Shown here: positions 43,348 to 64,000 of the stretch, in pieces
Position numbering within the stretch: the stretch's first letter is position 1
Layout of the letters: the number at the start of each line of letters is the position of its first letter
Program-made: the position numbers and the translations under genes
The notes under the pieces: generated by a model
Told to the model about the DNA's origin: nothing
Databases searched by the model: none
Seen by the model: the letters and a program-made list of their open reading frames with translations, nothing else
From: an uncultured Bacteroidales bacterium
Lineage (GTDB): Bacteria; Bacteroidota; Bacteroidia; Bacteroidales; UBA932
DNA length: 64,000 bases
Assembly (NCBI GenBank): GCA_900321715.1
Contig: ONXC01000013.1
Location: 58,804 to 122,803, forward strand
Reading direction: 5' to 3'

Positions 43348-44262
43348 ATGGAAGAAAACACAAATTTTATGTCTGTGGCTCTCTCATGGCTAAGCCACAA
43401 GAGGCAGTACGTTAAAAGATCCACTTACGCCGTCTACTGTAATCACGTCTACTCTCATCTTATCCCCTCCTTTGGCCAAATGACCCGCATCACGGAAAGG
43501 GAGGTCCAGGATTTTGTGGACGGGGAGCTTGAAAGGGGCCGAAGTCTCAAGACGGTGAAGGATGTCCTGGTGGTTCTTAAGATGGTTCTGAGGTTCTGGG
43601 AGAAAAGCGGCGCAGGGCCTGCCGCTAAGATTGACGTGGTGTTCCCAACAAAGAGGGAAAAATCTCAGATCCAGGTGCTTTCCGTTTCCAGCCAGAAACG
43701 GCTCATGGGCTATGTGAGGGAGCATTTTTCTTTCCGGAACCTGGGGATTCTGATATGCCTCAGTTCAGGGCTCAGGATTGGGGAGATCTGTGCGCTCCGC
43801 TGGGCCGATGTTGACCTTGCCGCCGGGGTGATCCGGGTCTGTAAGACCATCCAGAGAATCTACATTGACGGCCACACGGAACTCATTGAGGATGTGCCAA
43901 AGACGGTGAGTTCCATCCGGGAGATTCCTCTTACGCGGGAGCTTGGTGCGTATATGCGGAATCTAAGGAAGCTGGTGATGGCCGATTGGTATGTGGTGTC
44001 CGGCTCCCCCGCCCCGGTTGAGCCGCGGACGTACAGGGCGTATTTCAGGAATCTGATGGCAAATCTTGGGCTTCCTCCTATCCGATTTCATGGGCTGCGG
44101 CACAGTTTTGCTACGCGATGTATTGAGTCAAGGTGTGATTATAAGACAGTTAGCTCTATTCTTGGGCACTCGAATATAAGTACCACTCTGAATCTTTATG
44201 TGCATCCGGATCTGGAGCAGAAACGGCGCTGCATTGATGCCATGGTGAAGTTACTCAAATAA
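43348..44262 (+). CDS. Tyrosine recombinase / integrase
   Basis: 304 residues. N-terminal SAM-like DNA-binding domain (SWLSHKRQYVKRSTYAVYCNHV) and a catalytic domain with the full set: SGLRIGEICALRW (first Arg, about 143), REIPL strand region after a lysine, HGLRHSFATR (His-x2-Arg, about 247-250), LGHSNISTTLNLYVH (His and the nucleophile Tyr, about 284). It is an intact XerC/phage-type recombinase, 180 residues short of large conjugative-element integrases. Directly downstream lies the cassette with the conserved leader and small gene, so it may act on the inverted repeats there; that is inference. Confidence 0.9.
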   Translation: MEENTNFMSVALSWLSHKRQYVKRSTYAVYCNHVYSHLIPSFGQMTRITEREVQDFVDGELERGRSLKTVKDVLVVLKMVLRFWEKSGAGPAAKIDVVFPTKREKSQIQVLSVSSQKRLMGYVREHFSFRNLGILICLSSGLRIGEICALRWADVDLAAGVIRVCKTIQRIYIDGHTELIEDVPKTVSSIREIPLTRELGAYMRNLRKLVMADWYVVSGSPAPVEPRTYRAYFRNLMANLGLPPIRFHGLRHSFATRCIESRCDYKTVSSILGHSNISTTLNLYVHPDLEQKRRCIDAMVKLLK

Positions 44263-44298
44263 GGTGAATTTCTGCTTGCTTTTACTAAAGTAAATTGC

Positions 44299-44306
44299 TA
44301 ACTTCG
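44299..44306 (+). promoter_or_regulatory. Candidate -7 element (taacttcg) of the cassette
   Basis: Same variant -7 box as before nqrA and the nitroreductase gene, 159 bases before the small-protein ATG. It would start a leader transcript holding the hairpin at 44354-44391. Confidence 0.45.
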
Positions 44307-44353
44307 CGACTTGTAAAGTTAGAGATGCGTCACTTATCACTTTTTTTTGAATC

Positions 44354-44391
44354 CTTCACGTCCCTTAGCCACATACTAAGGGCGGGTGAAG
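44354..44391 (+). other. Leader hairpin of cassette A
   Basis: cttcac (44354-44359) and cccttag (44362-44368) pair with ctaaggg (44376-44382) and gtgaag (44386-44391), giving a 13-base-pair stem with a small internal loop, apical loop ccacata. A T-rich tract precedes it. It may attenuate or stabilise the cassette transcript. Its 3' half lies in the block shared with cassette B. Confidence 0.6.
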
Positions 44392-44399
44392 TGCGTTCT
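44369..44399 (+). repeat. 31-base inverted repeat, copy A
   Basis: Identical, on the opposite strand, to 63970-64000 at the window edge; the match may continue beyond the window. It includes the apical loop and 3' arm of the leader hairpin. Confidence 0.9.
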
Positions 44400-44447
44400 A
44401 GCGAGCGCAGCGAGTCGAGAAATCTCCTTCTATTGGGAAATCAAACT

Positions 44448-44532
44448 ATTAAATCCATAAATCTATGAACAAAGAAAAACTAACTTATCTGTCTCCCGAG
44501 ACAGAAACCCTCGTGGTACGATTCGAGGATTC
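44448..44532 (+). repeat. 85-base inverted repeat, copy A
   Basis: Identical base for base to the reverse complement of 63825-63909. It runs from 17 bases before the small-protein ATG through its first 22 codons and two bases of the 23rd. Sequences after it diverge at once, within the coding region. Confidence 0.95.
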
Positions 44533-44611
44533 TATTCTTCAAGTGGCTAGTCCAACTGGAGAAAATGTCAATGAACAGGAAACTTGGTCAGGAAGTAATG
44601 GCTGGTCTTAA
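44465..44611 (+). CDS. Small protein with conserved N-terminus and variable tail (cassette A)
   Basis: 48 residues. It starts MNKEKLTYLSPETETLVVRF and continues to ILQV identically with the 52-residue protein at 63734-63892, then ends in its own tail TGENVNEQETWSGSNGWS. The tail is polar and rich in G, S, N and W. No signal peptide or membrane segment. The stop is 10 bases before a large lipoprotein start, as in cassette B (11 bases). It could be a leader peptide for translational coupling, a chaperone-like partner, or a ribosomally made peptide with leader and core; function unknown. The repeated context is the best evidence that it is a real gene. Confidence 0.75.
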   Translation: MNKEKLTYLSPETETLVVRFEDSILQVASPTGENVNEQETWSGSNGWS

Positions 44612-44621
44612 TCTGGTTGTC

Positions 44622-47261
44622 ATGAAAAAGTATTTATTCATTTCGATGCTCGCCATAGCAGCTGTGGCAGCATTTTCCTGCGCTAAAGAAATAGATCAGA
44701 AAGTTGAGGATGAGATTATTAAAGAGTCTGAAGAAGTAGTTACTCCAGTTGTAGATAATCCTTTGGTAATAACAGCGTATGCAGACGATGATATAGCGCC
44801 TGACACAAAAACCAGTCTTAGTGGAGTTAGCGTACTATGGGCAGATTCCGACGAAGTCGCCGCATATAAATCTGGTGACACTAAACCGCATACTTCAACC
44901 GCTACAGAAGTTGCCGATGGAGGAAAGAAAGCGACATTCACTTTTACTGACTTAACAGTAGGCACAGATGTAACTTACATTATTTATCCGGCAGATGCTG
45001 CCGGCGACGAGGATGGCGGTTATTATTCAATCACAATTCCGACAGAGCAGGCTGCTACCGCAAACAGCTTTGCGGAAGGAGCAAATCTTGCCATGGCTGA
45101 CGGTTCCGTTGATGCTGACGCGGTTCAGTTTAAGAACTTAGGTGCACTGATTGGCATAAAGATTAACAATGATGACATTGAATCTGTAAAGATTGCCGCA
45201 AGTGAGGAAATGACCGGTGCTGGTATTGTTGATTCTGGTTTTGATGCAGTAAGCTTTGGAGAAACATATGTCAAACTTACTGGAGGTATTGACAACGGAT
45301 CTCAATATTATGCCGTTGTTTATCCAAGTCCTGTATCTGGATATACTGGACTTCAGATTGTTGCTGAAAACACTATTGGTCAGACAGCAACCTATAGTAA
45401 CCCTAATGCCCTTGTTTTAAACCGTAATGACAATTTACAGATTGCAAATTTGACAATTGCAAACTCAAAATGGTATCCCGCATATAATTCATGGTCTTAC
45501 ACATTTGAGAGTAAGGCATATGATGCGGTTGGAGCGAAAACTCTGAACGGCAAGTCATGGACTCTTGCTGGAGAAGGAACTACTACGGAGTTTAATTACA
45601 ATTCGACAAAAGGGGAGCAATTTGGTACAGCAACCAAACCTTTCACGTCATTAACTCTATCATCAAACTTTGGTGATGGCGAAGCTATAAAAACAGTTAA
45701 GGTTAATGCTTCTGGAGCAAATGATATTGTTGGAAGCATCTCTGTGTCTGTTGGGGGAAGTGCTTTTAAAAATGGAGAAAACACTTCTGTCTCATTGTCT
45801 TCAAGTGCTACGGATTATACTTTCGATTCTCCTGACGGAAAAGTCAAAACGGGAGTTATCGTTATCACCCTATCACAGACATCCTCGAAAGGCCTGTATA
45901 TTAAGTCAATAAGTGTCAATCCTAAAGGTGATCCGGGAATAGCATGGAAGAAAGCTGGATCTGTAGCGACTACAGACACCGGCACACTCATCACTGGTGA
46001 TGACACCTTACCGTCCATCGCTCTTGATAATCCAAACGCCGTTAGTGTGACATATTCCTCCGATGACGAGGAGGTGGCAACCATTAATGCTTCCACTGGT
46101 GAAATCGCCCTTGTTGGCGCTGGTTCAGCCGTAATCAGCGCGACCTCTGCAGAGACCTCTTATTATGCCTCCTCAACTGTATCATATACTTTAACTGTTA
46201 CGGATAGCCGTTCCGTGTGCGAGACTCCGACCTTCTCTCCAGGAGCAAGTGCTGTTGAAGAAAACGATGAAGTAACCATCTCCTCTACCACTACTGGCTC
46301 TACTATTTACTATACCGTTGATGGAAGTACACCCACAACGTCTTCTGCGCACGGGACGGTAGGTGATGCATCTGCTACCGTCACCATTGATGTTGCCAAG
46401 ACCGTCAAGGCTATTGCTGTCAAGGATGACTGGAAGACCAGCTCTGTTGCGAGCGCTACTTATACGATTTCCGGCGTGGTAACTCCGTTGGACGATCCTT
46501 CAAGCGTTGCCATTACGGCCATTTCTGCAACTGGTTTTACTGCGACATGGACCAATAACTCCAATGCTACCGGTTATTCCTGGATGCTTTCCACCTCTTC
46601 CACCGCCCCGGCAAACACCAGTGATGCCAGTGTTAAGGCTTATGGTTCGTTTACGTCAGCTTCTCCCGCTGGTTCTGGCGCAAGTCTAAGCAGCGGCACC
46701 TGGACACTTACTAAGACCAGTTTGTCGCTATCTGGAAAGTACTACTTCTATGTTAAGGCAGACGGAGATGGTTCAACATATTCGGATTCAGGTTATTCGA
46801 GCGATTCAAAGATTCTCATTATTCTCGATCTGAGCCAGAATATCTTTAGTCTGACGGCGGGTACTAGCTTTGGAACGACTAATGATGCAAGTAGCGAAAT
46901 CAGCAAAACCGTTGGCGACTATACGTATAAACTAAAAGCAACAAATAACTGCTTATACTTTAATTCCAAGGCGTTAGCAATAGGAAAAACTGATTCATAT
47001 ATAACTTTACCCGCAATTGCCTCTTATAAATTGAACTCTGTTTCTGCAAGTAACTGCGCAGGAGCCGCCAAACCTAATGTATTAATATGCAGTACAGCTA
47101 ATACCACCGCTATCACGAATGGTACCGCAACAGATATTAGCGCAGGTTCTACGGTATCATGGAATAATCTGGGGTCAAGTGCGAATACGTCTTATAGAGT
47201 ATATATAACTAACGCTAAAGTCGCTCAATTTGACAATATTACTCTTGTTTACGGTTTATAA
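44622..47261 (+). CDS. Large multidomain surface lipoprotein (cassette A)
   Basis: 879 residues from the ATG at 44622. Signal peptide KKYLFISMLAIAAVAAFSC followed by AKE, lipid anchored. An N-terminal fimbrillin-like domain (about 40-280: TSLSGVSVLWADSDEVAAY, YYAVVYPSP); a beta-sandwich domain (about 290-440); a bacterial Ig-like group 2 segment (SVTYSSDDEEVATINASTGEIALVGAG); a chitobiase-C-like segment with IYYTVDGSTPTTSS; a fibronectin-III-like segment (ATGFTATWTNNSNATGYSW); and a C-terminal beta domain. It probably faces outward and binds glycan or protein. Codon use is more AT-rich than in the core genes. Confidence 0.8.
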   Translation: MKKYLFISMLAIAAVAAFSCAKEIDQKVEDEIIKESEEVVTPVVDNPLVITAYADDDIAPDTKTSLSGVSVLWADSDEVAAYKSGDTKPHTSTATEVADGGKKATFTFTDLTVGTDVTYIIYPADAAGDEDGGYYSITIPTEQAATANSFAEGANLAMADGSVDADAVQFKNLGALIGIKINNDDIESVKIAASEEMTGAGIVDSGFDAVSFGETYVKLTGGIDNGSQYYAVVYPSPVSGYTGLQIVAENTIGQTATYSNPNALVLNRNDNLQIANLTIANSKWYPAYNSWSYTFESKAYDAVGAKTLNGKSWTLAGEGTTTEFNYNSTKGEQFGTATKPFTSLTLSSNFGDGEAIKTVKVNASGANDIVGSISVSVGGSAFKNGENTSVSLSSSATDYTFDSPDGKVKTGVIVITLSQTSSKGLYIKSISVNPKGDPGIAWKKAGSVATTDTGTLITGDDTLPSIALDNPNAVSVTYSSDDEEVATINASTGEIALVGAGSAVISATSAETSYYASSTVSYTLTVTDSRSVCETPTFSPGASAVEENDEVTISSTTTGSTIYYTVDGSTPTTSSAHGTVGDASATVTIDVAKTVKAIAVKDDWKTSSVASATYTISGVVTPLDDPSSVAITAISATGFTATWTNNSNATGYSWMLSTSSTAPANTSDASVKAYGSFTSASPAGSGASLSSGTWTLTKTSLSLSGKYYFYVKADGDGSTYSDSGYSSDSKILIILDLSQNIFSLTAGTSFGTTNDASSEISKTVGDYTYKLKATNNCLYFNSKALAIGKTDSYITLPAIASYKLNSVSASNCAGAAKPNVLICSTANTTAITNGTATDISAGSTVSWNNLGSSANTSYRVYITNAKVAQFDNITLVYGL

Positions 47262-47318
47262 TGTAAAAATAGAGGTAAGACTTCGATAAAGAACGTTTAG
47301 ATACACGTGTACATGTTT

Positions 47319-47366
47319 GTAGCAGCAACTTTTCCGAAGTTCCGGTAAGTTGCTGCTACTTTCGTT
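47319..47366 (+). terminator. Terminator after cassette A
   Basis: gtagcagcaactt (47319-47331) pairs with aagttgctgctac (47347-47359), 13 base pairs, then tttcgttt. The stem core agcagcaact/agttgctgct is shared with the terminator at 48933-48977. Confidence 0.8.
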
Positions 47367-47471
47367 TAGTTGCGTACTACTCGCTATGAGTCGCAGTCTG
47401 TCTTGAGGAAATTGTCCGAAAGGTAGCACAAGCGCTTCTGCTGAACGTGGTCACAAGCTTGACAGAATAAT

Positions 47472-47560
47472 TGGGACACCCCAACATGATATCACAATTT
47501 GTGATTTCAAGTTTGCATTCCCCTTTTAATCAAACTGAAACATAAAGTCTGATTAAATAT
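47472..47560 (-). pseudogene. Relic of an ORF6N-domain gene
   Basis: On the minus strand this reads MFQFD, stop, KG, then NLKSQIVISCWG, matching MFQLDLKEF and NLKSQNVISSWGG of the intact ORF6N gene at 59175-59756. Roughly 80% of the bases agree over about 85 bases, with an in-frame stop and no start. Only this core piece remains. Confidence 0.75.
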
Positions 47561-47674
47561 ATACACGTACTTGAAAACAAATTCTCAATAATTGACTGTT
47601 CTTGAGGTTGCAATTTGTGACCTCATGTTGATTTTCAATAACTTATGCCGTCCCGGTGACAAAACCAACTAAAA

Positions 47675-47704
47675 TCCATCCAGGATTTTGGCCGTTTTTC
47701 CGGA
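47675..47704 (+). repeat. Dispersed repeat, copy 1 (tccatcc...ttccggac)
   Basis: Imperfect copies of this 30-base element (tccatcc, gattt, gccgtt, ttccggac) also occur at 48990-49021 and 49042-49073, so the copies flank the Rpn gene. Confidence 0.5.
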
Positions 47705-47733
47705 CCCTGCTTAGTAAAGCGACATCGCATTAT

Positions 47734-47764
47734 TTTGCATCCTTAAGAAATAACCCTATATTTG
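47734..47764 (+). promoter_or_regulatory. Consensus promoter of the Rpn gene
   Basis: TTTG (47734-47737), 19 bases, TATATTTG (47757-47764). Transcription would begin about 200 bases before the ATG at 47973. Confidence 0.8.
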
Positions 47765-47770
47765 TATTGT

Positions 47771-47972
47771 TGTGGCCGTGAAGGATTCAGGGTTGGGTAG
47801 TTAGCCCCCTTGTTACGGGGACCCTGTCTTTGAGTTTGACCTTCGTGCCCAGGCATGAAGGGCCTTGCCGTTCTTTTGCAAGGCGCCTGTTCCGGAGCCG
47901 CATCAAGGGTAACGTAACACCGTCGCGGAAACACCGCGGCGCGTACAGTTTCACTTTACCCTTTTAACTGCT
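47771..47972 (+). ncRNA. Long structured 5' leader of the Rpn gene
   Basis: About 200 GC-rich bases without an ATG-led frame that fits. Visible stems include ccccc/gggg around ttgtta (about 47805-47820), gccttgc with gcaaggc (about 47865-47887) and a ccgcgg palindrome near 47935. Such a long folded leader is out of line with the short leaders elsewhere in the window and suggests control at RNA level, or a non-coding RNA read from the same promoter. Confidence 0.5.
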
Positions 47973-48914
47973 ATGGAACAGTTGATTACACCCCAAAAGT
48001 ATGTCAATCCCATGATTGACGTCGCATTCAAGTACCTGTTTGGTACGGAAAAGAACAAACACCTCCTCAAAGGACTTCTGGAAAATGTCTTCAAGCGAAA
48101 AATCAATGACATCATATATGACAATACGGTGCAGATAGGAGATACGCTTGAGAGCCGGAGTGCCTGCTTTGACGTTGTGTGCAAAAGTGTCGACGGCCCG
48201 GACTTCATTGTAGAATGCCAGGTGCGTACGCAGGCTTTCTTTGCCCAGCGAGCGATATTCTATTCTTCCAGGGCAATTGCCAATCAGGCCCCTAAAGGAG
48301 ACTGGGATTATAACTTCAGACCTGTCTATTTCCTCGGACTTGTGGACTTTCCGCTTCCGGAATCAGTTGGGAAATCGGAGGGGTATATACAAAGCTATTC
48401 TCTGAGAAATGACGTTAACAGCACACTTATGTCAGACAGGGTACGTTATGTTTTTATGGAAGTGGAGCCCTTTGACAAATCTTATGAGGAGTGCACCAAC
48501 TTTGAGGAAAAGTTCTTGTATTATATGAAGAATCTTCCTACTTTTGCCGATAAACCCGACACACATAACGACAAGTATTTTGAGGATCTTCTTATGGAAG
48601 CTGAATATCTGAAAATGGACACCGAAACGCAGGCCCAATACGAAAGACGCGTTAAAGAAATGCGTGACGCCAAAAACGTTGAGGAATATGCCCGCAAACA
48701 AGCAATTGCGGAAGGGCGCGCAAAAGGACTTGCCGAAGGACGTGAGGAAGGACGTGAGGAAGGACGTGAGGAAGGACGTGCCGAAGGCATTGCCTTAACT
48801 CTTAAAGCGTTGTCATTACTCAATGAAGGCAAATCTGTACAGGATGTCTATAAACTAACAGGTTTGTCAGAGGAGATAGTCAGCACTTTGTATTCGCGTA
48901 TCAATTCAGATTAG
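47973..48914 (+). CDS. Rpn family PD-(D/E)XK nuclease
   Basis: 313 residues. It opens MEQLITPQKYVNPMIDVAFKYLFG, the usual start of Bacteroidales Rpn/PD-(D/E)XK transposase-like proteins. Catalytic residues are the D of ACFDVVCKSVDG and E-x-Q of FIVECQ. Near the C-terminus a 12-base tandem repeat codes EGREEGREEGREEGR, a charged helix, followed by a short helical module with LNEGKSVQDVYKLTGLSEE. Rpn proteins promote RecA-independent recombination and some take part in phage defence through tandem-repeat variation. Transcribed alone, from the promoter at 47734, with terminator at 48933. Confidence 0.9.
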   Translation: MEQLITPQKYVNPMIDVAFKYLFGTEKNKHLLKGLLENVFKRKINDIIYDNTVQIGDTLESRSACFDVVCKSVDGPDFIVECQVRTQAFFAQRAIFYSSRAIANQAPKGDWDYNFRPVYFLGLVDFPLPESVGKSEGYIQSYSLRNDVNSTLMSDRVRYVFMEVEPFDKSYEECTNFEEKFLYYMKNLPTFADKPDTHNDKYFEDLLMEAEYLKMDTETQAQYERRVKEMRDAKNVEEYARKQAIAEGRAKGLAEGREEGREEGREEGRAEGIALTLKALSLLNEGKSVQDVYKLTGLSEEIVSTLYSRINSD

Positions 48915-48932
48915 GACACGGAGTTATATGTA

Positions 48933-48977
48933 AGAAGCAGCAACTTCACCATCGCGGTCAGTTGCTGCTTCTTTTTA
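48933..48977 (+). terminator. Terminator of the Rpn gene
   Basis: agaagcagcaact (48933-48945) pairs with agttgctgcttct (48960-48972), 13 base pairs, followed by five T residues. Confidence 0.85.
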
Positions 48978-48989
48978 TAGTGGCATGGA

Positions 48990-49021
48990 ATCCATCCTGA
49001 TTTTTGCCCGTTATTCCGGAC
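48990..49021 (+). repeat. Dispersed repeat, copy 2 (tccatcc...ttccggac)
   Basis: Related to 47675-47704 and 49042-49073; lies just after the Rpn terminator. Confidence 0.5.
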
Positions 49022-49041
49022 GGGCAGGTAAAAAACTGGCT

Positions 49042-49073
49042 TCCATCCATGAAAATGGGGTGTTTTTCAGGAC
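49042..49073 (+). repeat. Dispersed repeat, copy 3 (tccatcc...ttcaggac)
   Basis: More diverged copy of the same element, 20 bases after copy 2. Confidence 0.4.
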
Positions 49074-49078
49074 GGGAA

Positions 49079-49103
49079 GATGCGGGATCAGGTCGGGCAT
49101 GAC
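49079..49103 (-). repeat. Palindromic repeat of the gtcatgcccg type
   Basis: On the minus strand reads gtcatgcccgacctgatcc then cgcatc, nearly the same as the element inside uvrA and the one in the cassette B leader. Confidence 0.6.
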
Positions 49104-49315
49104 GGGAACGCCCCTGGCATTTCGTCCCTATATTTGAGTTTTCGTCCCTAATCCGTTGAAACGTAAATTTTATTGTTTTTGTTTTTTGTGATTGTGGGAT
49201 TCCGGATTTATTTGCAATATATTTGAGGTCAACATAAATGAAACGATTATGCTGACCTACTATTGTGCATTCTTTTGTCGCCCGCCCTAATAATCTTTGT
49301 GGTTGCGAACAATTA

Positions 49316-49347
49316 TTTGGAAGTAATAAAATTATTACCTAGATTTG
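49316..49347 (+). promoter_or_regulatory. Promoter of the DUF4160/DUF2442 pair
   Basis: TTTG (49316-49319), 20 bases, TAGATTTG (49340-49347), then an aaggag ribosome binding site at 49350 and the ATG at 49362. Confidence 0.75.
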
Positions 49348-49361
49348 TAAGGAGAAATAAA

Positions 49362-49601
49362 ATGCCAACGATATTTAGAGTTTTTGGGTATATATTTAAA
49401 TTCTACTCAAACGAGCATGAGCCTATTCATATACACGTTATTAAGGGAGGATCAAAAGCCAAATACACAATTAATCCTGTCGAACTAATTGAAAATGAAG
49501 GTTTCAATCCTGCAGAGTTAAAGATGATAGAATCCATAGTAGAAGATAATCAAGAGGTAATTGCAGAACATTGGAACAAGTACTTTAATAAGGCCCAATA
49601 G
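49362..49601 (+). CDS. DUF4160 family protein
   Basis: 79 residues. PTIFRVFGYIFKFYSNEHEPIHIHVIKGGSKAKYTI is the standard DUF4160 opening (F-x-S-N-E-H-x-P-x-H-I-H-V), with closely spaced histidines that could bind metal or form a catalytic site. These proteins are commonly encoded next to DUF2442 proteins and are suspected toxin-antitoxin partners; not proven. The DUF2442-HTH gene starts 2 bases after the stop. Confidence 0.85.
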   Translation: MPTIFRVFGYIFKFYSNEHEPIHIHVIKGGSKAKYTINPVELIENEGFNPAELKMIESIVEDNQEVIAEHWNKYFNKAQ

Positions 49602-49603
49602 AA

Positions 49604-50005
49604 ATGATTACCGTGACTAAAATATGGCTTACAGAAGATGCCGTATGGATAAGGACTTCAGAAGGAAAAGAAGCCTGTGAGTATTATGCCGATTATCCTA
49701 GGCTCAAGTATGCTACGCCGGCGCAGCGCTCACATTATGAGTCGGATGAATACGGCATCCATTGGCCAGATATTGATGAAGACCTGAGTTATGAGGGATT
49801 CTTCCAGTCCAAACAACGGACAGATCTATACCGCATATTCATGTCACATCCGGAACTTAACGCATCTGCCGTTGCACGCAGGCTTGGAATATCCCAAAGT
49901 CTCTTTGCCCAGTATATCAGCGGATTCAAAAAACCTTCGCAGAAGCGTTTGGAGGAGATATATGCTACTATTCGCCAGATTGGGAAAGAATTGATGGCTG
50001 TTTAG
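49604..50005 (+). CDS. DUF2442 domain with C-terminal helix-turn-helix
   Basis: 133 residues. The first half (EYYADYPRLKYATPAQRSHYESDEYGIHWPDIDEDLSYEGFF) is DUF2442. The second half reads NASAVARRLGISQSLFAQYISGFKKPSQKRLEEIYATIRQIGKELM, a helix-turn-helix of the Xre kind. DNA binding plus adjacency to DUF4160 suggests the antitoxin/regulator of a pair. A diverged paralogue lies at 58793-59221. Confidence 0.82.
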   Translation: MITVTKIWLTEDAVWIRTSEGKEACEYYADYPRLKYATPAQRSHYESDEYGIHWPDIDEDLSYEGFFQSKQRTDLYRIFMSHPELNASAVARRLGISQSLFAQYISGFKKPSQKRLEEIYATIRQIGKELMAV

Positions 50006-50011
50006 TTATGC

Positions 50012-56005: not shown

Positions 56006-58789
56006 ATGGCCAATAATACCACACAAAAGCAGGCAGCAAGGCAGTTTGTCCAGGACTGGTCTGGGAAGGGATATGAGAAGGGCGAGACCGCCCGTTTCTG
56101 GATTGCACTGCTGCAGAATGTTTACGGAATTCAGGATGCCACCAAGTTCATGGAATTTGAACTTCCTGTAAAGACCATCCTGAAGGAGAAGGGCGCAGAC
56201 TTTATTGACGGGTATATTCCCACCACTAAGGTCCTCATTGAGCAGAAGGGCTCCAAGGTGGATCTTACGGCCAAGTACCGTCAGTCCGACGGCTCTGAGC
56301 TTACTCCATACCAGCAGGCCAGGCGTTATGCCGCCGGTCTTCCTGTTTCAATGGCTCCTCGCTGGATTGTCGCTTGCAATTTCACTACGTTTGAGGTTCA
56401 TGACATGGAGCGTCCAAATGATGCTCCTGAGGTCATTGAGCTCAAGGATCTTGAGAGGGAGTATCACCGTCTCGGTTTCCTTGTGGATGATTCTAATGTT
56501 CATCTAAAGAAGGAGCTGGAAGTCAGTATCCAGGCCGGTGAGATTGTGGGTGTCCTTTATGACAAGATTCTTGCCCAGTATAAGGACCCTGCTAATCCCG
56601 AATCCCAGAAGAGCCTCAACAAGCTTTGTGTCCGTATTGTATTCTGTCTTTATGCAGAGGACGCCGGTATCTTCGGGGCCAAGGATATGTTCCATGATTA
56701 TCTGGAGCAGTTCACGGCCGGGGAGCTTCGTGAGAAGCTTATCAAACTGTTCCGCATCCTTGATACAAAGCCGGAGGACCGTGACCCTTATGAGGACGAG
56801 AAACTCCTTGCATTCCCGTATGTGAACGGCGGCATGTTTGCCGGGGAGATTGAGATTCCCAGGTTCAATGAGGAGATCAGGACGCTGCTGCTTCAGCGCG
56901 CCAGCGACGACTTTGACTGGAGCGCCATCAGCCCTACTATCTTTGGCGCCGTGTTTGAGTCTACTCTTAATCCTGAGACTCGCCGTTCCGGCGGCATGCA
57001 CTATACCAGCATTGAGAACATTCACAAGGTAATAGACCCTCTGTTCCTGGATGATCTTAAGACTGAGTTGGCCGATATCCGTGCCACTTCCGTGACTAAA
57101 CTGAAGAGGGAGAGGGCTATTGCTTTCCAGGAGAAGATTTCAGGGCTAAAGTTCTTTGACCCGGCTTGTGGGTCGGGTAATTTCCTGACGGAGTCTTATA
57201 CCAGTCTCCGAAGGCTGGAGAACGAGGCTCTCCGTATTATTTATGGTGGTGACCGCGTGATTGGTGAGATGGTGGATCCTATCAAGGTTTCCATCAACCA
57301 GTTTTATGGGATTGAGATTAATGATTTTGCCTGTTCTGTGGCGCAGACGGCACTGTGGATTGCGGAGAGTCAGATGATGGCCGCAACGGATGAGATTGTG
57401 GGGTTTAATTTGGATCCGCTGCCGCTGAAGACGTATACCAATATTCACGAAGGGAATGCCCTCAGGATGGACTGGAACGATGTTGTTCCGGCTGGGGAGT
57501 TGAATTATATTATGGGGAATCCACCCTTCTTAGGGCATCAAAACCGGAGTGAATCTCAGATTGAAGACATGGATGTTGTTTTCCTGGGATTTGAAGCCTA
57601 TGGAAAATTGGATTATGTCGCAGCTTGGTATAAGAAGGCCGCAGACTATATACAAAGGACGAAGATTAAATGTGCTTTCGTTTCAACTAACAGTCTTGTC
57701 CAGGGAGAGTCTGTTTCAACTTTGTTTAAGCCATTAAAGGAACTCTTGAACATAGAGTTATTGTTTGCGTGGCGTTCTTTCGTATGGGATAGTGAGGCTA
57801 GTGAAAAAGCTCATGTGCATTGTGTTATCATAGGTTTCCATTATGGAGGTTCTACTGAGAGAAAAACAATTTATGATAAGGATGGAGCACATCAAGCGGA
57901 CCACATAAATGGTTATTTAATTGATGGTCCGGATGTGTTTCTGGAAGGAAGAGGGAAACCTAAGTTTATGAATCTTCCGGAAATGACCAAGGGAAGTCAG
58001 CCAACAGATGGCGGCAATCTCATTTTGAGCGAATTTGAAAAGGAAGAGCTTATTTCTGCATATCCCGAGGCCGGTCATTTTATAAGACCATATATTGGTG
58101 CTGATGAATTCATTAAAGGTACTAAGAGATATTGCTTATGGATGAAGGGTGTATCACCCGCATTATATAGAATCATCCAACCAGTACGCGAAAGAATTGA
58201 AAAGGTTGCAGAGATGAGACGCAAGTCTCCTACTAAATCTGTTCAACGTGATGCTGAAATTCCTTCTCTATTTACTCAGATTCGTCAGCCAGTTAGCGAT
58301 TACCTCGTAGTACCTGAAACATCTTCCGAAAAGAGGTATTATATCCCAATGGGATACCTGTCACCGGATATTATTTGTAGTAATTCGATTAGATATATCC
58401 CGAATGCAACTCTTTTTATGTTCGGGATCTTGACTTCTTCGCTTCATATGGCATGGATGCGTGTGGTGTGTGGTCGTCTTGAGATGCGTTATCGTTATTC
58501 TCCTGCTGTTTACAATAACTTCCCGTGGCCTGAGCACTTGTCGGAAGCTAAAAAACAGAAGATAGAGCAAACGGCACAGGCTATCCTTGATGCCCGTGCG
58601 CTCTATCCGGACAGTAGTCTGGCAGATCTGTATGATGATCTTACTATGCCGGTAGAACTACGCCGCGCCCACCGTGCCAACGATGCTGCCGTCCTGGAGG
58701 CCTACGGCTTCCCGAAGGACGCTAGTGAGAGCGATATCGTCGCCCGCCTCTTCAAAATGTATCAGGACCTCACTACTAATCTTGAATAG
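56006..58789 (+). CDS. MmeI-like type IIL/IIG restriction-modification enzyme
   Basis: 927 residues, close to MmeI (about 920). The N-terminal part has FIDGYIPTTKVLIEQKGSKVDL, a PD-(D/E)XK nuclease core (D...E-x-K). The methyltransferase part has GGMHYTSIENIHKVIDPLF, FFDPACGSGNFL (motif I) and MGNPPFLG (motif IV, N-P-P-F, N6-adenine type). The C-terminal third is the target recognition domain, noticeably more AT-rich (57.6-58.4 kb) than the rest, as if exchanged. One protein cuts and modifies using S-adenosylmethionine. No separate R, M or S gene is needed. A degraded 5' fragment of a second copy is at 60978-61051. Confidence 0.9.
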   Translation: MANNTTQKQAARQFVQDWSGKGYEKGETARFWIALLQNVYGIQDATKFMEFELPVKTILKEKGADFIDGYIPTTKVLIEQKGSKVDLTAKYRQSDGSELTPYQQARRYAAGLPVSMAPRWIVACNFTTFEVHDMERPNDAPEVIELKDLEREYHRLGFLVDDSNVHLKKELEVSIQAGEIVGVLYDKILAQYKDPANPESQKSLNKLCVRIVFCLYAEDAGIFGAKDMFHDYLEQFTAGELREKLIKLFRILDTKPEDRDPYEDEKLLAFPYVNGGMFAGEIEIPRFNEEIRTLLLQRASDDFDWSAISPTIFGAVFESTLNPETRRSGGMHYTSIENIHKVIDPLFLDDLKTELADIRATSVTKLKRERAIAFQEKISGLKFFDPACGSGNFLTESYTSLRRLENEALRIIYGGDRVIGEMVDPIKVSINQFYGIEINDFACSVAQTALWIAESQMMAATDEIVGFNLDPLPLKTYTNIHEGNALRMDWNDVVPAGELNYIMGNPPFLGHQNRSESQIEDMDVVFLGFEAYGKLDYVAAWYKKAADYIQRTKIKCAFVSTNSLVQGESVSTLFKPLKELLNIELLFAWRSFVWDSEASEKAHVHCVIIGFHYGGSTERKTIYDKDGAHQADHINGYLIDGPDVFLEGRGKPKFMNLPEMTKGSQPTDGGNLILSEFEKEELISAYPEAGHFIRPYIGADEFIKGTKRYCLWMKGVSPALYRIIQPVRERIEKVAEMRRKSPTKSVQRDAEIPSLFTQIRQPVSDYLVVPETSSEKRYYIPMGYLSPDIICSNSIRYIPNATLFMFGILTSSLHMAWMRVVCGRLEMRYRYSPAVYNNFPWPEHLSEAKKQKIEQTAQAILDARALYPDSSLADLYDDLTMPVELRRAHRANDAAVLEAYGFPKDASESDIVARLFKMYQDLTTNLE

Positions 58790-58792
58790 GAT

Positions 58793-59221
58793 TCAGAAAT
58801 CTGCCTCCAGCAGTTCTTTTCCCAGATTGTGTATATGCTCCAGAATAGCCTTCTCCCGCTCGAGAGAAGGTTTTTTGAATCCATTTATGTAATTGCGTAG
58901 AAGAGTTGCGTTGATGCCGGCATAGCGTGCAAACTCAGCAATGTTGATCTCTTTATGGGTAAGAAAGAATGCCTGCATCGCCGTCGGCTGGGCATCATCA
59001 TAAAGAAAACTCTCAAAACTGATATCTTCATCAACATTCCGCCAATGGAGCCCATCAAGACCGATTGTAAACTGCTCCCGCTCCGAGGCAGATGCCGCCT
59101 TGAGACGAGGATACCAGAGAAGGGATTGGCTATGCACCTGTCCATTCTCGTCCCGACCATAAATCTGGTCCTTTTCAAACCATATCTCCTTGATCAAACC
59201 CAATCTTACGCCTAGGTTCAT
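58793..59221 (-). CDS. DUF2442 domain with C-terminal helix-turn-helix
   Basis: 142 residues from the ATG at 59221. Paralogue of the protein at 49604: WYPRLKAASASEREQFTIGLDGLHWRNVDEDISFESFL is DUF2442, NIAEFARYAGINATLLRNYINGFKKPSLEREKAILEHIHNLGKELLE the helix-turn-helix. There is no DUF4160 partner here; instead it overlaps the ORF6N gene by 47 bases. Three bases separate its stop from the convergent MmeI-like gene. Confidence 0.8.
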   Translation of the reverse strand: MNLGVRLGLIKEIWFEKDQIYGRDENGQVHSQSLLWYPRLKAASASEREQFTIGLDGLHWRNVDEDISFESFLYDDAQPTAMQAFFLTHKEINIAEFARYAGINATLLRNYINGFKKPSLEREKAILEHIHNLGKELLEADF

Positions 59222-59756
59222 TCTTCTTCTCTTCAATCTTCTCTGCCAGTTGGCCGATAGCAATATATAGGGAATCAATGTCCCGGCGGACATCTTCCGA
59301 GAGGTCACTGATGGCACCATTAGTTTCCTCTTGTTGGATTTGAAGCAAGTCTACTCTGGCTTTTAGCTCTTTCAGTTCCGAAGATAAGGAAGAAGAAGTC
59401 AAAAGGTACTCACGAATCTTTAGGAAGGCGCGCATAATGCTGATATTTACTTGAATGGCTGTTTCACTATGAAGCACCGATGAAAGCATTGCCACTCCTT
59501 GCTCTGTAAATGCATGTGGTAGTTTTCGAGTACCACCCCAACTTGATATCACATTTTGTGATTTCAAGTTTGTAAACTCCTTTAAATCAAGCTGAAACAT
59601 AAAATCTGAAGGGAATCTATTTATATTTCTTTTCACAGCTTGATTAAGATTCCCGGTCGTCACGTGGTACAACTTTGCCAGATCAAAATCCAGCATCACC
59701 TTTTTACCTCTAATCTCGTGGATGAGGTTTTGAACAAGAACTAATTCATCACTCAT
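59175..59756 (-). CDS. ORF6N domain protein
   Basis: 193 residues from the ATG at 59756. ELVLVQNLIHEIRGKKVMLDFDLAKLYHVTTGNLNQAVKRNINRFPSDFMFQL is the ORF6N/KilA-N-like DNA-binding domain known from phages and integrated elements. The C-terminal part (SSLSSELKELKARVDLLQIQQEE) is a coiled coil ending in a basic tail. Possibly a regulator. A relic of a close copy lies at 47472-47560. Confidence 0.88.
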   Translation of the reverse strand: MSDELVLVQNLIHEIRGKKVMLDFDLAKLYHVTTGNLNQAVKRNINRFPSDFMFQLDLKEFTNLKSQNVISSWGGTRKLPHAFTEQGVAMLSSVLHSETAIQVNISIMRAFLKIREYLLTSSSLSSELKELKARVDLLQIQQEETNGAISDLSEDVRRDIDSLYIAIGQLAEKIEEKKNEPRRKIGFDQGDMV

Positions 59757-59803
59757 ATAATAGCCTCCATATCTTTCCACTTGAACATATGTTCGCGTGC
59801 CTA

Positions 59804-59811
59804 CAAAGGTA
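59804..59811 (-). promoter_or_regulatory. -7 element of the ORF6N gene
   Basis: Minus strand TACCTTTG, 47 bases before the ATG at 59756, supports that start over the longer open frame. Confidence 0.5.
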
Positions 59812-59852
59812 TAACATTTCTGGCAATATTTGCGAATTATTGCCAAAATATA

Positions 59853-59860
59853 TACATTTG
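59853..59860 (+). promoter_or_regulatory. -7 element of the MNT/HEPN operon
   Basis: TACATTTG, 17 bases before the ATG at 59878. Confidence 0.55.
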
Positions 59861-59877
59861 CAGAAAAGAACAACACA

Positions 59878-60648
59878 ATGGAATATCACGTACAGATAAC
59901 TCCGCTTATGAAAGCCGTATGCCAAACCTTGATAGAAGAATGTGAAGGTGTTGATTATTGCATTGTCCAGCAACCTAAAAACCTAATTGTAGAGGTTTCT
60001 AGGAGTGATATTGAGCAAACAGTGTTAGTGCTCAAAAAGCACTTCCCTGACGTGGTGGATATCAGAAAGGCTTATCTTATGATAGAAGACCTCCACGATT
60101 TCATCCTGGTAAAGCCTTTCACCTCGGAGTCTCCGGTGATTCAAGAAGAAGGCATTCCGGTCCCCACCATTGAGAAAATGATGGTAGACCGCATTTCTGA
60201 TAAGGAGTACGGCAAACGCGGCCTGGAGGATTCTGTCCAAATGTATCAAAGGATAATGGAGACATACTCCGTAAACACCTCCCGTCTATTGCGCTATGCC
60301 GCCAGAAAAGGCAAAAAGGAGGAGGTCAGTGAGATTCTGTCTCAGATAAACAAAAATAGAATTGACACCATCAAGGCCATCTGCCAGGTTCTTTCAACTG
60401 CTCCTGTGCTTCGCGCCTGGGTGTTTGGCTCCTTCGCCCGCATGGAAGAGCGGCCTGACAGCGATATCGATATATTGATCACATTGGACAAATCTGCACA
60501 CATTGGCTTATTTGCTTTCTCCGAACTAGTCAACCAACTAGAATCCGCCGTAGGCCGGGCCGTTGACCTTGTACCAGAAGATGCTTTAAAGCCCTATGCG
60601 CGTCCTTATGTAGAGAAAGATAAAGTCCTTGTGTATGAGAGAGCCTAG
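59878..60648 (+). CDS. MNT-type nucleotidyltransferase with long N-terminal extension
   Basis: 256 residues. The C-terminal 100 residues are a minimal nucleotidyltransferase: WVFGSFARMEERPDSDIDILI (G-S-x10-D-x-D) and AVDLVPEDALKPYARPYVEKDKVLVYE. MNT proteins AMPylate and so neutralise their HEPN toxin partner. The first 150 residues are unusual for MNT: a small alpha/beta domain (CIVQQPKNLIVEVSRSD, YLMIEDLHDFILVKPF) and then a helical part. The next gene, a HEPN protein, overlaps it by 14 bases. Confidence 0.82.
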   Translation: MEYHVQITPLMKAVCQTLIEECEGVDYCIVQQPKNLIVEVSRSDIEQTVLVLKKHFPDVVDIRKAYLMIEDLHDFILVKPFTSESPVIQEEGIPVPTIEKMMVDRISDKEYGKRGLEDSVQMYQRIMETYSVNTSRLLRYAARKGKKEEVSEILSQINKNRIDTIKAICQVLSTAPVLRAWVFGSFARMEERPDSDIDILITLDKSAHIGLFAFSELVNQLESAVGRAVDLVPEDALKPYARPYVEKDKVLVYERA

Positions 60649-60997
60649 CAGAGATAAAGGCCGTCTAGAAGACATTATTGAAGCGGCAGATTACGTTTCC
60701 TCATTTACGCGTGGACTGGATTACGAAGGTTTTGTGGCCGACAAACTCCGTTATTTCGCAGTGTTAAAGAACGTTGAGATTATTGGTGAAGCCACTTATA
60801 TGATAACACCTGCCTTGAAAGAATCTCATCCTGAAATTCCTTGGGAAAAGATAATCAAGATGAGGCACGTTTTAGTTCACGGCTATTCCTCAATTCTGCC
60901 GGAACTATTATGGGATACGGCTATCAACGATGTCCCAAAGTATAGGGAACAAGTTTGTTCATTGCTAGATGAGATTAATGACCAACAATACCACTAA
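60635..60997 (+). CDS. hepT: HEPN-domain toxin, HepT/DUF86 type
   Basis: 120 residues from the ATG at 60635. IKMRHVLVHGYS contains R-x4-H-x-Y, the RNase motif of HepT; the rest is a four-helix HEPN fold (EDIIEAADYVSSFTRG, FAVLKNVEIIGEATYMI). With the overlapping MNT gene it forms a type VII toxin-antitoxin pair acting on tRNA or other RNA. The last codons (NDQQYH) coincide with the start of a relic of an MmeI-like gene in another frame, so its natural C-terminus may have been altered. Confidence 0.85.
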   Translation: MREPSRDKGRLEDIIEAADYVSSFTRGLDYEGFVADKLRYFAVLKNVEIIGEATYMITPALKESHPEIPWEKIIKMRHVLVHGYSSILPELLWDTAINDVPKYREQVCSLLDEINDQQYH

Positions 60998-61051
60998 ATA
61001 GCAGGTGGATAGGCAGTTGTCCAGGATTGGTCCGGGAAGGGCTATGAAATG
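60978..61051 (+). pseudogene. 5' relic of a second MmeI-like gene
   Basis: From ATGACCAACAATACCAC to gggaagggctatgaaatg this aligns with the first 75 bases of the MmeI-like gene at 56006, with about 75-80% of bases equal, one lost base and a stop after seven codons. Homology begins inside the last codons of hepT and ends near 61051. Nothing else of the gene remains. Confidence 0.75.
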
Positions 61052-61112
61052 AATACCTTCTGAAAAGAGCATTGAACAGCTACTACCCGGTAGTACCACG
61101 TCAATACCTACT

Positions 61113-61155
61113 ATTAGCCGCCACTACCCGGTACTACTCGAGAGTGGCGGCTAAT
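61113..61155. other. Perfect 13-base-pair inverted repeat
   Basis: attagccgccact (61113-61125) and agtggcggctaat (61143-61155), with loop acccggtactactcgag. A shorter inverted repeat tactac-ccg-gtagta lies at 61081-61095, and the words ctacccggta recur in loop and repeat. Possibly a terminator for hepT or an element end. Confidence 0.6.
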
Positions 61156-61220
61156 GCACTTTATCGGATGCTTACGGACTTCAACCCTTATCCGCATACT
61201 ATAATGGATTTGATAACAAA

Positions 61221-61249
61221 AGAGCAGAGTTCATATTGAACCCTGCTCT
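61221..61249 (-). terminator. Terminator of cassette B lipoprotein gene
   Basis: Read on the minus strand, agagcagggttca pairs with tgaactctgctct (one G-U pair) and is followed by ttttgtt, 8 bases after the lipoprotein stop. Confidence 0.75.
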
Positions 61250-61256
61250 TTGACAT

Positions 61257-63722
61257 TTAGTTAATCTGCAAAGCCTTTAGGTAGAATGCTTTACTTGAAG
61301 TCGATTGTTTGAAATCTATTCTTAACGAGCCCTGGTAAAGCTTATCGAATGCTATTTTCTGAGCTGACGTAGGAGTTCCTGTTTTAGAAACCGCTACGTC
61401 TTCAGCGACTTTGTTTCCTCCAACATAAACATCAATCGTTACGGTACTTCCAGTCGCTTTACAGCATGTTAAAGTTACGCTTTCGATTCCAGCAGTGTAA
61501 TCTGATGAAGTCAAAGATAGAGAAGTCATCGCACGATTATTCGAGGCACCAATTTGATAATGATTTGTGCTCCCTCCTACCCATGACAGATAGTGTGTCG
61601 ATGATTCCCAAGTAAATGCATGCGTCCACGACATTGTCAGCAGCCCAGAAGTCCAGCTCTTTGTGGCCCCTGCATCACTTAGATCGCCACTGGCAAGAGA
61701 ATGAGTCCAGGTAGCTCCTTTTACGATACCGCCACCCTTATATGCCTGTTTAAGGCTTATAGGAATATTGATACCGTCACGAGATACAGTTACAGTAGCA
61801 GCATAGTCATCACCAGACTCATTATCCTCGACAACGTTTACATCAAGGTAATACTCATTTGTTGAACCATTCCTGGTAATGTCTGCCTCAAATTTTGCAG
61901 CATCAGTGCCAGTTATAGCCACATTGCTGGAAGTGAGCTCATAAGTTGAAGTGATAGTTATTCGTTTGATTTCTGTATTTGTATAATCATCCCACACGAA
62001 GTTGAGGGGGGAAGTTGATGAGGCTTCAAATACAGATGCATTTTGAGAAACATTTATTGTCTTGGTAACCGAAGGATTTGATGCGGAAACAAGAACAATT
62101 GTACCTGCCCGCACCGCACATGTGTGATTAGCCGTAACGGTATAAACAATATCTCCACCATCTGCAATAGCCTCAGAGACACAACCAGTCACTCCAGAAA
62201 CCGTAACATCATCTACAAAATTAGAAACTGTGTACGTTGCTTCTGCATCAACAACACCGATTGCAGCGACTCCTGAAATATTTTCAGCGTTGATACGAGG
62301 AGTAAGATCAGGTGCTGCAATGGATATAGACCCCATGGCAAGGTTACCCGTGGCCTTGGTGAATGTCATTTTGATATAGCGGTATGTACTATTGCTATTG
62401 GCAACCAGAACGGGATCAGGCGTCTCTTCTACATTAGACCCATGAGTAAATGACGGAGTCGCAATTTCAGTGTAAGACGTCCCGTCAGCTGAACCATAAA
62501 CTTTTAATGTGGAAGTCGGAGTACTTCCGGTATTATATAAAGCGACAATAGATATATCTCCAAAAGCGCTCTTAGTTGGAATAATAATCTGATCATTAGT
62601 AGCATCAAATTTTAAAGTACTACCAAAGAAATAGGAGGCATTCGCCGTGTAATAATCTGCACCTGTTAATTCCACGAACTCCACATTATTACGTGTTTTG
62701 AAGTTGATGGTTGCCGGGATGTCATATCCAACCAGCTCGCGGTTACAGGTTGCACTTTCAAGATTCAAACCAAGTCGTTTAACCTTTGCACGCTGAAATT
62801 CTTTAGCAGAGGAAATGGTGTACTCATAAGTTGCAGCATTCGTCTCCAGTGTAACAGTCCCGGTATAGCTGCCAGGAGCTAGGACCATATAGACTTTTTT
62901 AGCGTTTGAAACACTTGTTGCATCTCCCACCGACAGGCCAGTTACAGATGTGGTTACGCTTGTTCCGGTATATCCAGAGATGCTCAGAGTGGATTCAAGG
63001 TTAGAAACATCAACAGTTCTTAAATCGAAAGAGAATGAACCAGCAATACTACTGGTAGACTCAAAAGTAACGGATTTAATACTTTCTGCTGCATATTCAC
63101 CTGTGGAAGAGAAAATGTCAAACTCCACAATACCGCCAAGGTTGTAAAAATGTACTTTTGATGTTTCATCGATGGAGCTTTGAGCAGATACCGCGGCGGA
63201 AATACCGAAAGGTTCTGCAACCATCGGCATGGCCGAGGCGTCAAAGGAAGTGCCATCCTGGGTCTGATCTGCAGGAATCTGCATTGTAGTTGATGGCGTT
63301 GTGTCTTTTGTCCCGGTATAGGGATACATGGCATAAATAGGGTCATCTACTTCCAACGCTCTATAACTGTGAATAGTGAACGTCACAGGATTAGTGCTTG
63401 CATCAACAGTACTCTCATTATTATATGAATACGCCCCATTACCTCCGGTATAAAGGGCCCAAGTATTCAGCTTATCGGTGCTTTCCCACTGAAGGAAAAG
63501 GCCGTTTGCATCTGAGTTCAGGATAGACTTCGTATCCTTATCTGCATTCGAAGCATCACCATTAGATACGACAAAAGTATACTCGAATGTTTCAGCGGGC
63601 TCTTCAGTCGGGTTATCAACCACAACATTCTCGTCTGTCTTCTCAATTTGTGCTTCCTTTGCGCAGGAAAAAATAGCACCTGCACATGCTATCACAGTCA
63701 AAAATGATAATAATCTCTTCAT
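61257..63722 (-). CDS. Large multidomain surface lipoprotein (cassette B)
   Basis: 821 residues. Signal peptide KRLLSFLTVIACAGAIFSC followed by AKE, like cassette A. An N-terminal fimbrillin-like domain (TKSILNSDANGLFLQWESTDKLNTWA, YAMYPYTG, VYMVLAPGSYTGTV); a discoidin-like segment (STLKVYGSADGTSYTEIATP ... YRYIKMTF); one or two BACON/Ig-like segments (SASNPSVTKTINVSQN; TVTVSRDGINIPISLKQAYKG); and a C-terminal beta domain comparable to the one in the middle of the cassette A protein. Lipid anchored and likely surface exposed. The small-protein gene ends 11 bases upstream. Confidence 0.8.
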   Translation of the reverse strand: MKRLLSFLTVIACAGAIFSCAKEAQIEKTDENVVVDNPTEEPAETFEYTFVVSNGDASNADKDTKSILNSDANGLFLQWESTDKLNTWALYTGGNGAYSYNNESTVDASTNPVTFTIHSYRALEVDDPIYAMYPYTGTKDTTPSTTMQIPADQTQDGTSFDASAMPMVAEPFGISAAVSAQSSIDETSKVHFYNLGGIVEFDIFSSTGEYAAESIKSVTFESTSSIAGSFSFDLRTVDVSNLESTLSISGYTGTSVTTSVTGLSVGDATSVSNAKKVYMVLAPGSYTGTVTLETNAATYEYTISSAKEFQRAKVKRLGLNLESATCNRELVGYDIPATINFKTRNNVEFVELTGADYYTANASYFFGSTLKFDATNDQIIIPTKSAFGDISIVALYNTGSTPTSTLKVYGSADGTSYTEIATPSFTHGSNVEETPDPVLVANSNSTYRYIKMTFTKATGNLAMGSISIAAPDLTPRINAENISGVAAIGVVDAEATYTVSNFVDDVTVSGVTGCVSEAIADGGDIVYTVTANHTCAVRAGTIVLVSASNPSVTKTINVSQNASVFEASSTSPLNFVWDDYTNTEIKRITITSTYELTSSNVAITGTDAAKFEADITRNGSTNEYYLDVNVVEDNESGDDYAATVTVSRDGINIPISLKQAYKGGGIVKGATWTHSLASGDLSDAGATKSWTSGLLTMSWTHAFTWESSTHYLSWVGGSTNHYQIGASNNRAMTSLSLTSSDYTAGIESVTLTCCKATGSTVTIDVYVGGNKVAEDVAVSKTGTPTSAQKIAFDKLYQGSLRIDFKQSTSSKAFYLKALQIN

Positions 63723-63733
63723 AGTACGGCAAT

Positions 63734-63892
63734 TTAAAGAAGGTCAACATCTCCATCGTCTTCGCGGGGCATGTACTCTGTCCCGTAAACGACATTAAGT
63801 AAAGGGCTATTCACCTGCAAAATTGAATCCTCGAATCGTACCACGAGGGTTTCTGTCTCGGGAGACAGATAAGTTAGTTTTTCTTTGTTCAT
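63734..63892 (-). CDS. Small protein with conserved N-terminus and variable tail (cassette B)
   Basis: 52 residues. Its first 27 residues (MNKEKLTYLSPETE to ILQV) are identical to the cassette A protein, and the tail differs completely: N-S-P, then VVYGTEYMPREDDGDVDLL. Like its twin it has no signal peptide and stands 11 bases before a large lipoprotein gene. Identity extends to the third codon positions only in the 85-base block; beyond it even shared residues (SILQV) use different codons, which shows that the protein end of the conserved part is under selection while the DNA block is recently exchanged. Confidence 0.75.
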   Translation of the reverse strand: MNKEKLTYLSPETETLVVRFEDSILQVNSPLLNVVYGTEYMPREDDGDVDLL

Positions 63893-63909
63893 AGATTTAT
63901 GGATTTAAT
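63825..63909 (-). repeat. 85-base inverted repeat, copy B
   Basis: Exact reverse complement of 44448-44532. Confidence 0.95.
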
Positions 63910-63935
63910 GGATTTAATTGTTTGATAATCGGCAT

Positions 63936-63962
63936 TAGATGCCCGATCGGGTCGGGCATGAC
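63936..63962 (-). repeat. Palindromic repeat of the gtcatgcccg type in cassette B leader
   Basis: Reads gtcatgcccgacc then cgatcgggcatcta on the minus strand; close match to the copy inside uvrA. In cassette A this slot (44400-44447) holds an unrelated sequence. Confidence 0.7.
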
Positions 63963-63969
63963 ACGCAAC

Positions 63970-64000
63970 AGAACGCACTTCACCCGCCCTTAGTATGTGG
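63970..64000 (-). repeat. 31-base inverted repeat, copy B (to window edge)
   Basis: Exact reverse complement of 44369-44399; probably continues past the edge as the other arm of the leader hairpin. Confidence 0.9.

Follow-up and report, generated by a model that had tools for sequence, protein, structure and literature searches.

A predicted recombinase-driven inversion switch between two lipoprotein cassettes in an uncultured Bacteroidales bacterium

In Bacteroides fragilis, outer surface proteins are reportedly subject to inversions mediated by a tyrosine recombinase (Weinacht 2004). A comparable arrangement occurs in the six-gene Vpma system of Mycoplasma agalactiae, where inversion by the tyrosine recombinase Xer1 links a silent lipoprotein gene to a promoter, and disruption of xer1 locks the phase, which constitutes experimental proof of the mechanism (PMC2268961). 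Small inversions have been surveyed (PMC5903667), and larger inverting segments have been reviewed as moving genes into expression loci (PMC12632263). Here, we analyzed a 64,000-nt stretch of DNA (the window) from an uncultured Bacteroidales bacterium. Judging from its sequence, the window probably carries a site-specific inversion switch that would choose between two lipoproteins, A and B, by means of a single promoter. In the literature that we searched, whose coverage was limited, no description of this leader–lipoprotein inversion system was found.

The window is the final part of contig C20 (G000:C20:58804-122803) in an assembly of 2.04 Mb and 29 contigs that is ~81% complete and is designated G000; its genus may be Cryptobacteroides. 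The sequence-only reading that preceded this work had described two cassettes of opposite orientation sharing identical DNA, and alignment confirmed this: a 31-nt block (copy A, 44369-44399, + strand; copy B, 63970-64000, − strand) and an 85-nt block (copy A, 44448-44532, + strand; copy B, 63825-63909, − strand) form inverted copies that match at 31/31 and 85/85 positions, and the 85-nt block continues to 116 nt at 91% identity. Only one other inverted pair, of 35 nt at 77% identity, was reported between 43,000 and 64,000 (minimum length 25, seed 12); thus, the identity of the blocks is not due to chance. A DNA search with leader A matched at both cassettes and additionally hit the 31-nt block of contig C21. 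An apparent third 31-nt copy on C21 was rejected, as it is the same copy seen through a 99-nt overlap between C20 and C21.

The 85-nt block spans the end of the leader and the start of a small gene. Small leader gene A (48 aa, 44465-44611, + strand) stops 10 nt before the ATG of lipoprotein A (44622-47261, + strand), while small leader gene B (52 aa, 63734-63892, − strand) stops 11 nt before the ATG of the 821-aa lipoprotein B (61257-63722, − strand; ORF list and Pfam scan). The listed start of lipoprotein A, at 44565, overlaps the small gene; the start that yields a signal peptide is at 44622. Divergence behind the common start was likewise borne out, with small-gene tails that give total lengths of 48 vs 52 aa and lipoprotein N-terminal regions that are 26% identical. 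The two lipoproteins have an N-terminal signal in common, followed by a weakly similar N-terminal region, over which lipoprotein A is 21–26% identical to eight others. Lipoprotein A matches PF13290 and PF13287 (CHB_HEX_C_1 and Fn3_assoc), and lipoprotein B gives only a sub-threshold match, to F5_F8_type_C. No pilin match (Type V pilin/fimbrillin, Mfa_like) was found for either protein in Pfam or NCBIfam. The N-terminal region of lipoprotein A had no PDB sequence match at E 1, and its model, with a mean pLDDT of 49, is of such low confidence that a fold search, which gave no match at E 0.001, is not meaningful. Lipobox-type signal peptides suggest that A and B are located at the cell surface.

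A recombination site is predicted upstream of each of the two lipoprotein genes. The 31-nt block consists of a spacer, a right arm and 17 further nt, and is half of a palindrome that extends beyond it. Site A (44362-44382, + strand) reads CCCTTAG-CCACATA-CTAAGGG, with its left arm at 44362-44368; site B runs on into C21, where its left arm CCCTTAT occupies C21:100-106. Read toward the cassette, the full site is therefore CCCTTA(G/T)-CCACATA-CTAAGGG, with 7-nt arms around a 7-nt spacer, which we take to be the layout of a tyrosine-recombinase core site. The palindrome CCCTTANCYRCAYACTAAGGG, searched with up to one mismatch allowed, gave 10 matches without any mismatch, spread over eight of the 400 genus genomes searched (G000 among them); a reversed-pattern control gave none in the same 400 genomes. 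A half-site pattern returned 13 rows, representing 12 distinct sites, in the eight palindrome-bearing genomes. Both partner sites were in hand for five genomes (G000, G398, G238, G280 and G053). The spacer is identical within each of the five and takes four forms across them: CCACATA (two genomes), CCGCACA, CTGCACA and GTGTCAA. The G053 site, GTGTCAA-CTTAAGG, differs from the others, and the promoter-side left arm in G238 and G280 is CCCAAAG, so that these promoter-side sites are not full palindromes. Viral contigs held no exact match to the expression-site 20-mer.

Contig ends also coincide with some of these sites. Position 64000 is the end of C20, and C21:1-99 exactly repeats the last 99 nt of C20, which places the outer flank of site B on C21. 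Among the 58 contig ends of G000 we found nine dovetails, seven of them exactly 99 nt, which makes 99 the probable k of the final assembly and C21 the physical neighbor of C20. The break falls precisely on the outer boundary of the 31-nt block. With only 31 nt against a k of 99, a static repeat should not break a contig, yet C20 stops at the block edge. From the way such assemblers work, we infer that an overlap of length k points to a branch in the graph and not to a gap in coverage. However, C20 continues without a break across site A, and a mixed population ought to produce a branch there as well, which makes the graph argument one-sided. Across genomes, a contig end is found no more than 10 nt from 4 of the 12 sites vs 0.014 expected (Poisson, rounded genome sizes; two of the four come from G398 and are not independent), and the remaining eight lie away from contig ends. 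These four are site B of G000, two sites in G398 and one in G196: the recombinase contig of G398 stops 4 nt beyond the site and the contig with its other flank (C21-like by eye) 10 nt beyond, and the recombinase contig of G196 stops 5 nt beyond. Such ends are expected if both orientations are present, although they could have other causes.

A promoter-like motif, TTGC-N19-TAACTTCG, lies at 44276-44306 (+ strand) and points at site A; its consensus is one that we take to be of Bacteroidales type. The scan covered 600 nt outside each site plus each leader, and its TTGC/TTCG variants were admitted only after site A had been seen. In all five two-site genomes, the promoter match is confined to one of the two sites: one flank scores 10/10, a value reached by at most 4 of 200 shuffles, and the other scores 7–8/10, reached by at least 143 of 200. 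For the eight sites of G000, G238, G280 and G053, the leader from site to ATG and the outer flank at 260–600 nt score no more than 8/10. Promoter and recombinase share a flank in G000 and G398 and lie on opposite flanks in G238 and G053, while G280 has no recombinase match at E 1e-30. Where one site is in hand, G196, L127, G304, G141 and G244 score 10/10 and G236 scores 7/10. A promoter-like motif is also found downstream of the recombinase in L125, L126, L127 and G398.

Comparison between genomes provides a further indication of rearrangement. The promoter flank of G280 resembles the cassette-2 flank of G238 (116/120), and the gene behind it resembles cassette 1 of G238 (304/320). A cassette is thus exchanged behind the same promoter flank, between species and not between the strains that had been suggested for comparison. 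The leader from site to ATG in G238 and G280 is a mosaic of short repeats, which leaves the exact point of exchange ambiguous. The outer flanks of the G238 locus occur ~1 kb apart at G000:C17:69417-74911, so the chromosomal location of the cassette system differs between G238 and G000. A block at 52.9-57.5 kb of the window is found near the cassettes in G000, G238 (in part) and G280.

An intact tyrosine recombinase had been noted directly before cassette A, and it is indeed there: the 304-aa ORF at 43348-44262 (+ strand) matches PF00589 (E 6.6e-27) and carries R143, K166, H248, R251, H274 and Y284, six residues presumed to be catalytic. Of its three nearest named relatives, two have titles that point to goat and water-buffalo reticulum, and the other belongs to the 'uncultured Bacteroidales bacterium' RUG478; RUG genomes derive from rumen. 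A scan of genome contigs found 502 relatives. Among the best 80 of these, 28 have an inverted repeat (at least 20 nt, no more than 500 nt from the gene) vs 8 of 212 control windows, and contig ends come within 300 nt of the gene on the upstream side in 21 and on the downstream side in 4. We inspected 25 of the 28 repeat-bearing loci, leaving out L138, L152 and L153, and 24 of the 25 have an HsdS-type N-terminal reading frame at the repeat. Pfam detected Methylase_S in 5/5 of the hsdS-type loci scanned, and recombinase identity for the 25 inspected loci is 52–62%. Separately, the contigs of four relatives (L131, L132, L140 and L141) begin inside the hsdS-type repeat, and such contig starts may be a general assembly signature of inversion. 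In a midpoint-rooted tree of 45 proteins (L134 was labeled hsdS by eye, outside the 25-locus inspection), seven of nine cassette recombinases, including that of the window, and the unlabeled L143 formed a supported group nested among the hsdS-associated ones. The G238 recombinase falls on a different branch from the window's, and that of G073, whose protein start was chosen mechanically, lies elsewhere on a long, unreliable branch. The contig of L143 starts 222 nt before its recombinase and contains a site-like CCTTATCTCATACCTAAGGG. The window recombinase belongs to the hsdS-associated family, and lipoproteins stand at the window repeats instead of hsdS genes, with no Methylase_S detected by Pfam among the 16 window proteins scanned.

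Linkage of recombinase and cassette varies across the genus. Among the 13 genomes besides G000 whose leader matches are strongest, seven have a recombinase match (E 1e-30) and six have none; the recombinase lies ~300 nt or less from the leader match in G304, G053, G238 and G073 and on a separate contig in G236, G269 and G141. The ORF lists viewed for G007, G021 and G005, whose recombinases are 50–57% identical, contained no leader–lipoprotein pair. In G236, the 279-aa recombinase L139 (G236:C103, 8819-9658) by reading lacks an internal stretch that holds the catalytic H and Y; it is followed by a leader gene and a lipoprotein that have their own promoter-like motif, and no site was seen. Inverted repeats at L230 (G269) were rejected as a site, as they fall within the coding regions of two adjacent genes, at their 3′ ends.

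Each small gene is predicted to form two tandem RNA hairpins (gene A, 44489-44529, + strand, at about 44489-44504 and 44508-44529; gene B, the same two by folding, 63828-63868, − strand), and both hairpins were predicted in 19/19 small-gene starts folded. Folding energy was below that of synonymous-codon variants (p ≤ 0.035) in 15/19 leaders, many of them near relatives, vs 8/56 ordinary coding windows, for which the test used 200 shuffles and a codon table built from a larger set of genes. In a fixed single register, helix 1 is paired in 64% of cells and helix 2 in 97%; helix 2 shows both-side changes in two pairs, and helix 1 needs different registers. Paired cells (80.7% vs 75.6% shuffled) and the covariation score (0.150 vs 0.100 shuffled) were above the shuffled values, while both-side-change pairs (matched or exceeded by 153 of 500 shuffles) and further pair types (by 450 of 500) showed no excess. 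Sliding the structure by +1 or +2 gave slightly higher covariation (0.162 and 0.166), and hairpin covariation is therefore not established.

An RNA model of the small-gene start found three members in G000, namely A, B and a cassette C on C21 (150 of 298 candidates scored), and matched in 3 of 25 genomes when 150 candidates were scored per genome. Cassette C, by eye, has its own promoter-like motif. As DNA, the 85-nt start is conserved within the genus, at 80–94% in the six best-matching genomes. A leader search that tallied 85 of 400 genomes was set aside: most of the listed rows are confined to about query 57-90, where leader A contains a short dispersed repeat (window 44396-44428) that recurs in many genus genomes, and these rows were not counted as cassettes. 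At E 1, Rfam gave no match at the hairpin-bearing leader gene, nor did Pfam or NCBIfam match the three small proteins scanned. The leader gene may represent an unrecognized regulatory RNA.

The segment between the cassettes carries other genes. Between 47973 and 60997 there are a PD-(D/E)XK transposase-family gene, a DUF4160/DUF2442 pair, a Big_2 lipoprotein, an MmeI-like restriction–modification gene (56006-58789), an ORF6N gene and a nucleotidyltransferase/HepT-like pair. A 76-nt direct repeat (47477-47552 and 59534-59609, 88% identity) has one copy within the ORF6N gene and the other where no ORF of at least 60 aa is listed. Lipoprotein A is followed by a hairpin (47305-47372), possibly a terminator, which matches Rfam mir-194 below the gathering score (E 0.0021); a similar hairpin sequence occurs in L230 near 5186-5225.

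Based on these data, we propose a plausible mechanism. The recombinase (43348-44262) would recombine the inverted palindromic sites A and B within their common spacer/right-arm block, thereby flipping the predicted invertible segment of ~19.6 kb (44369-64000, no strand assigned), which is delimited by the two sites. The only full promoter match in the scanned regions is found in the stretch from the recombinase to site A, beyond the segment; inversion would set either leader and lipoprotein A or leader and lipoprotein B behind it, with the other pair left promoterless at the far site. The two-hairpin leader gene would accompany each lipoprotein gene, whose translation it probably tunes or couples. 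We infer that these sites are the substrate of the recombinase, that the two orientations occur side by side and that expression is switched. The sequence-only reading had likewise envisaged a lipoprotein-swapping inversion, and this part is supported, with recombinase-linked, inward-facing cassettes whose inversion would cover ~19.6 kb and with promoter, partner sites, contig ends and cross-genome comparison in agreement. Its crossover inside the peptide gene is not supported as the main event, because the palindromic recombinase-type site, with its matched spacers and contig ends, precedes the leader and coincides with the 31-nt block. Exchange within the 85-nt block is possible, but from its sequence this block reads better as a conserved leader-peptide/RNA-hairpin element than as a crossover site.

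Identical blocks could also be maintained by gene conversion or homologous recombination within a dispersed leader–lipoprotein family, with no programmed inversion. The DNA-level conservation of the 85-nt start, where homologous exchange could swap tails, and the genomes that have the block but no recombinase match are compatible with this idea, which had been offered earlier as the ordinary alternative. Yet it does not predict a palindrome, one promoter per pair, contig ends at the site boundary or spacers that are identical within genomes and mostly not between them, and the small-gene-start model found only three members in G000 among the 150 of 298 candidates scored. Plain conversion also leaves the palindrome, the matched spacers and the contig ends at the site unexplained, and we regard it as improbable. 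A similarly low probability attaches to a relic that once inverted and is now fixed in G000. The single assembled orientation, continuous at site A, and the G236 recombinase that by reading lacks its catalytic H and Y would suit such a relic, but the window still encodes an intact recombinase in which the six catalytic residues are present, neither site is degraded, and C20 stops at site B with a k-length overlap.

Least probable of all, in our view, is that the palindrome acts merely as an RNA hairpin, an attenuator or stability element in the 5′ leader, rather than as a recombination site. The palindrome does lie within the predicted leader transcript, and its complementary arms could pair over 7 bp around a 7-nt loop. 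Nevertheless, partner sites that have no promoter match carry it too, spacers match within genomes, flanks change at the palindrome and contigs end there. The site-specific inversion switch remains the reading that we favor. A broader proposal is more tentative and, in our judgment, somewhat doubtful: that a recombinase of the hsdS-shuffling family was recruited for lipoprotein switching via a segment with MmeI-like and toxin–antitoxin-like genes, and that the leader ORF encoding two conserved hairpins is a novel cis-regulatory element, carried along with each cassette, through which leader translation is coupled to lipoprotein expression.

The predicted switch would extend single-promoter lipoprotein switching to a large gut and rumen Bacteroidales genus known here from metagenome assemblies, and it suggests how a restriction-shuffling recombinase came to serve surface variation. 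The specific 21-nt site makes flipping testable in existing metagenome reads.

As is reported for the B. fragilis system, the locus combines a Bacteroidales host, a tyrosine recombinase and, as predicted here, an inversion affecting surface proteins. It shares with the Bacteroidota hsdS-inverted-repeat systems the recombinase family, inverted repeats near the recombinase and some contigs that end at the repeat; in those systems, however, the repeat lies at the start of hsdS genes, whereas here an intergenic palindrome precedes lipoprotein cassettes. Vpma has surface lipoproteins, an adjacent tyrosine recombinase, one active promoter per locus and a recombination region upstream of each gene, and the same features are seen or predicted here. 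In contrast to the six genes and experimental proof of Vpma, there are two cassettes here, at the ends of a 19.6-kb segment whose inversion is predicted from sequence; unrelated cargo, a hairpin-bearing leader gene before each lipoprotein and a different phylum also set it apart. Since Vpma follows the same logic and is experimentally proven, the mechanism class is already known; what is new is the recombinase lineage, the site, the leader gene and the 19.6-kb cargo segment.
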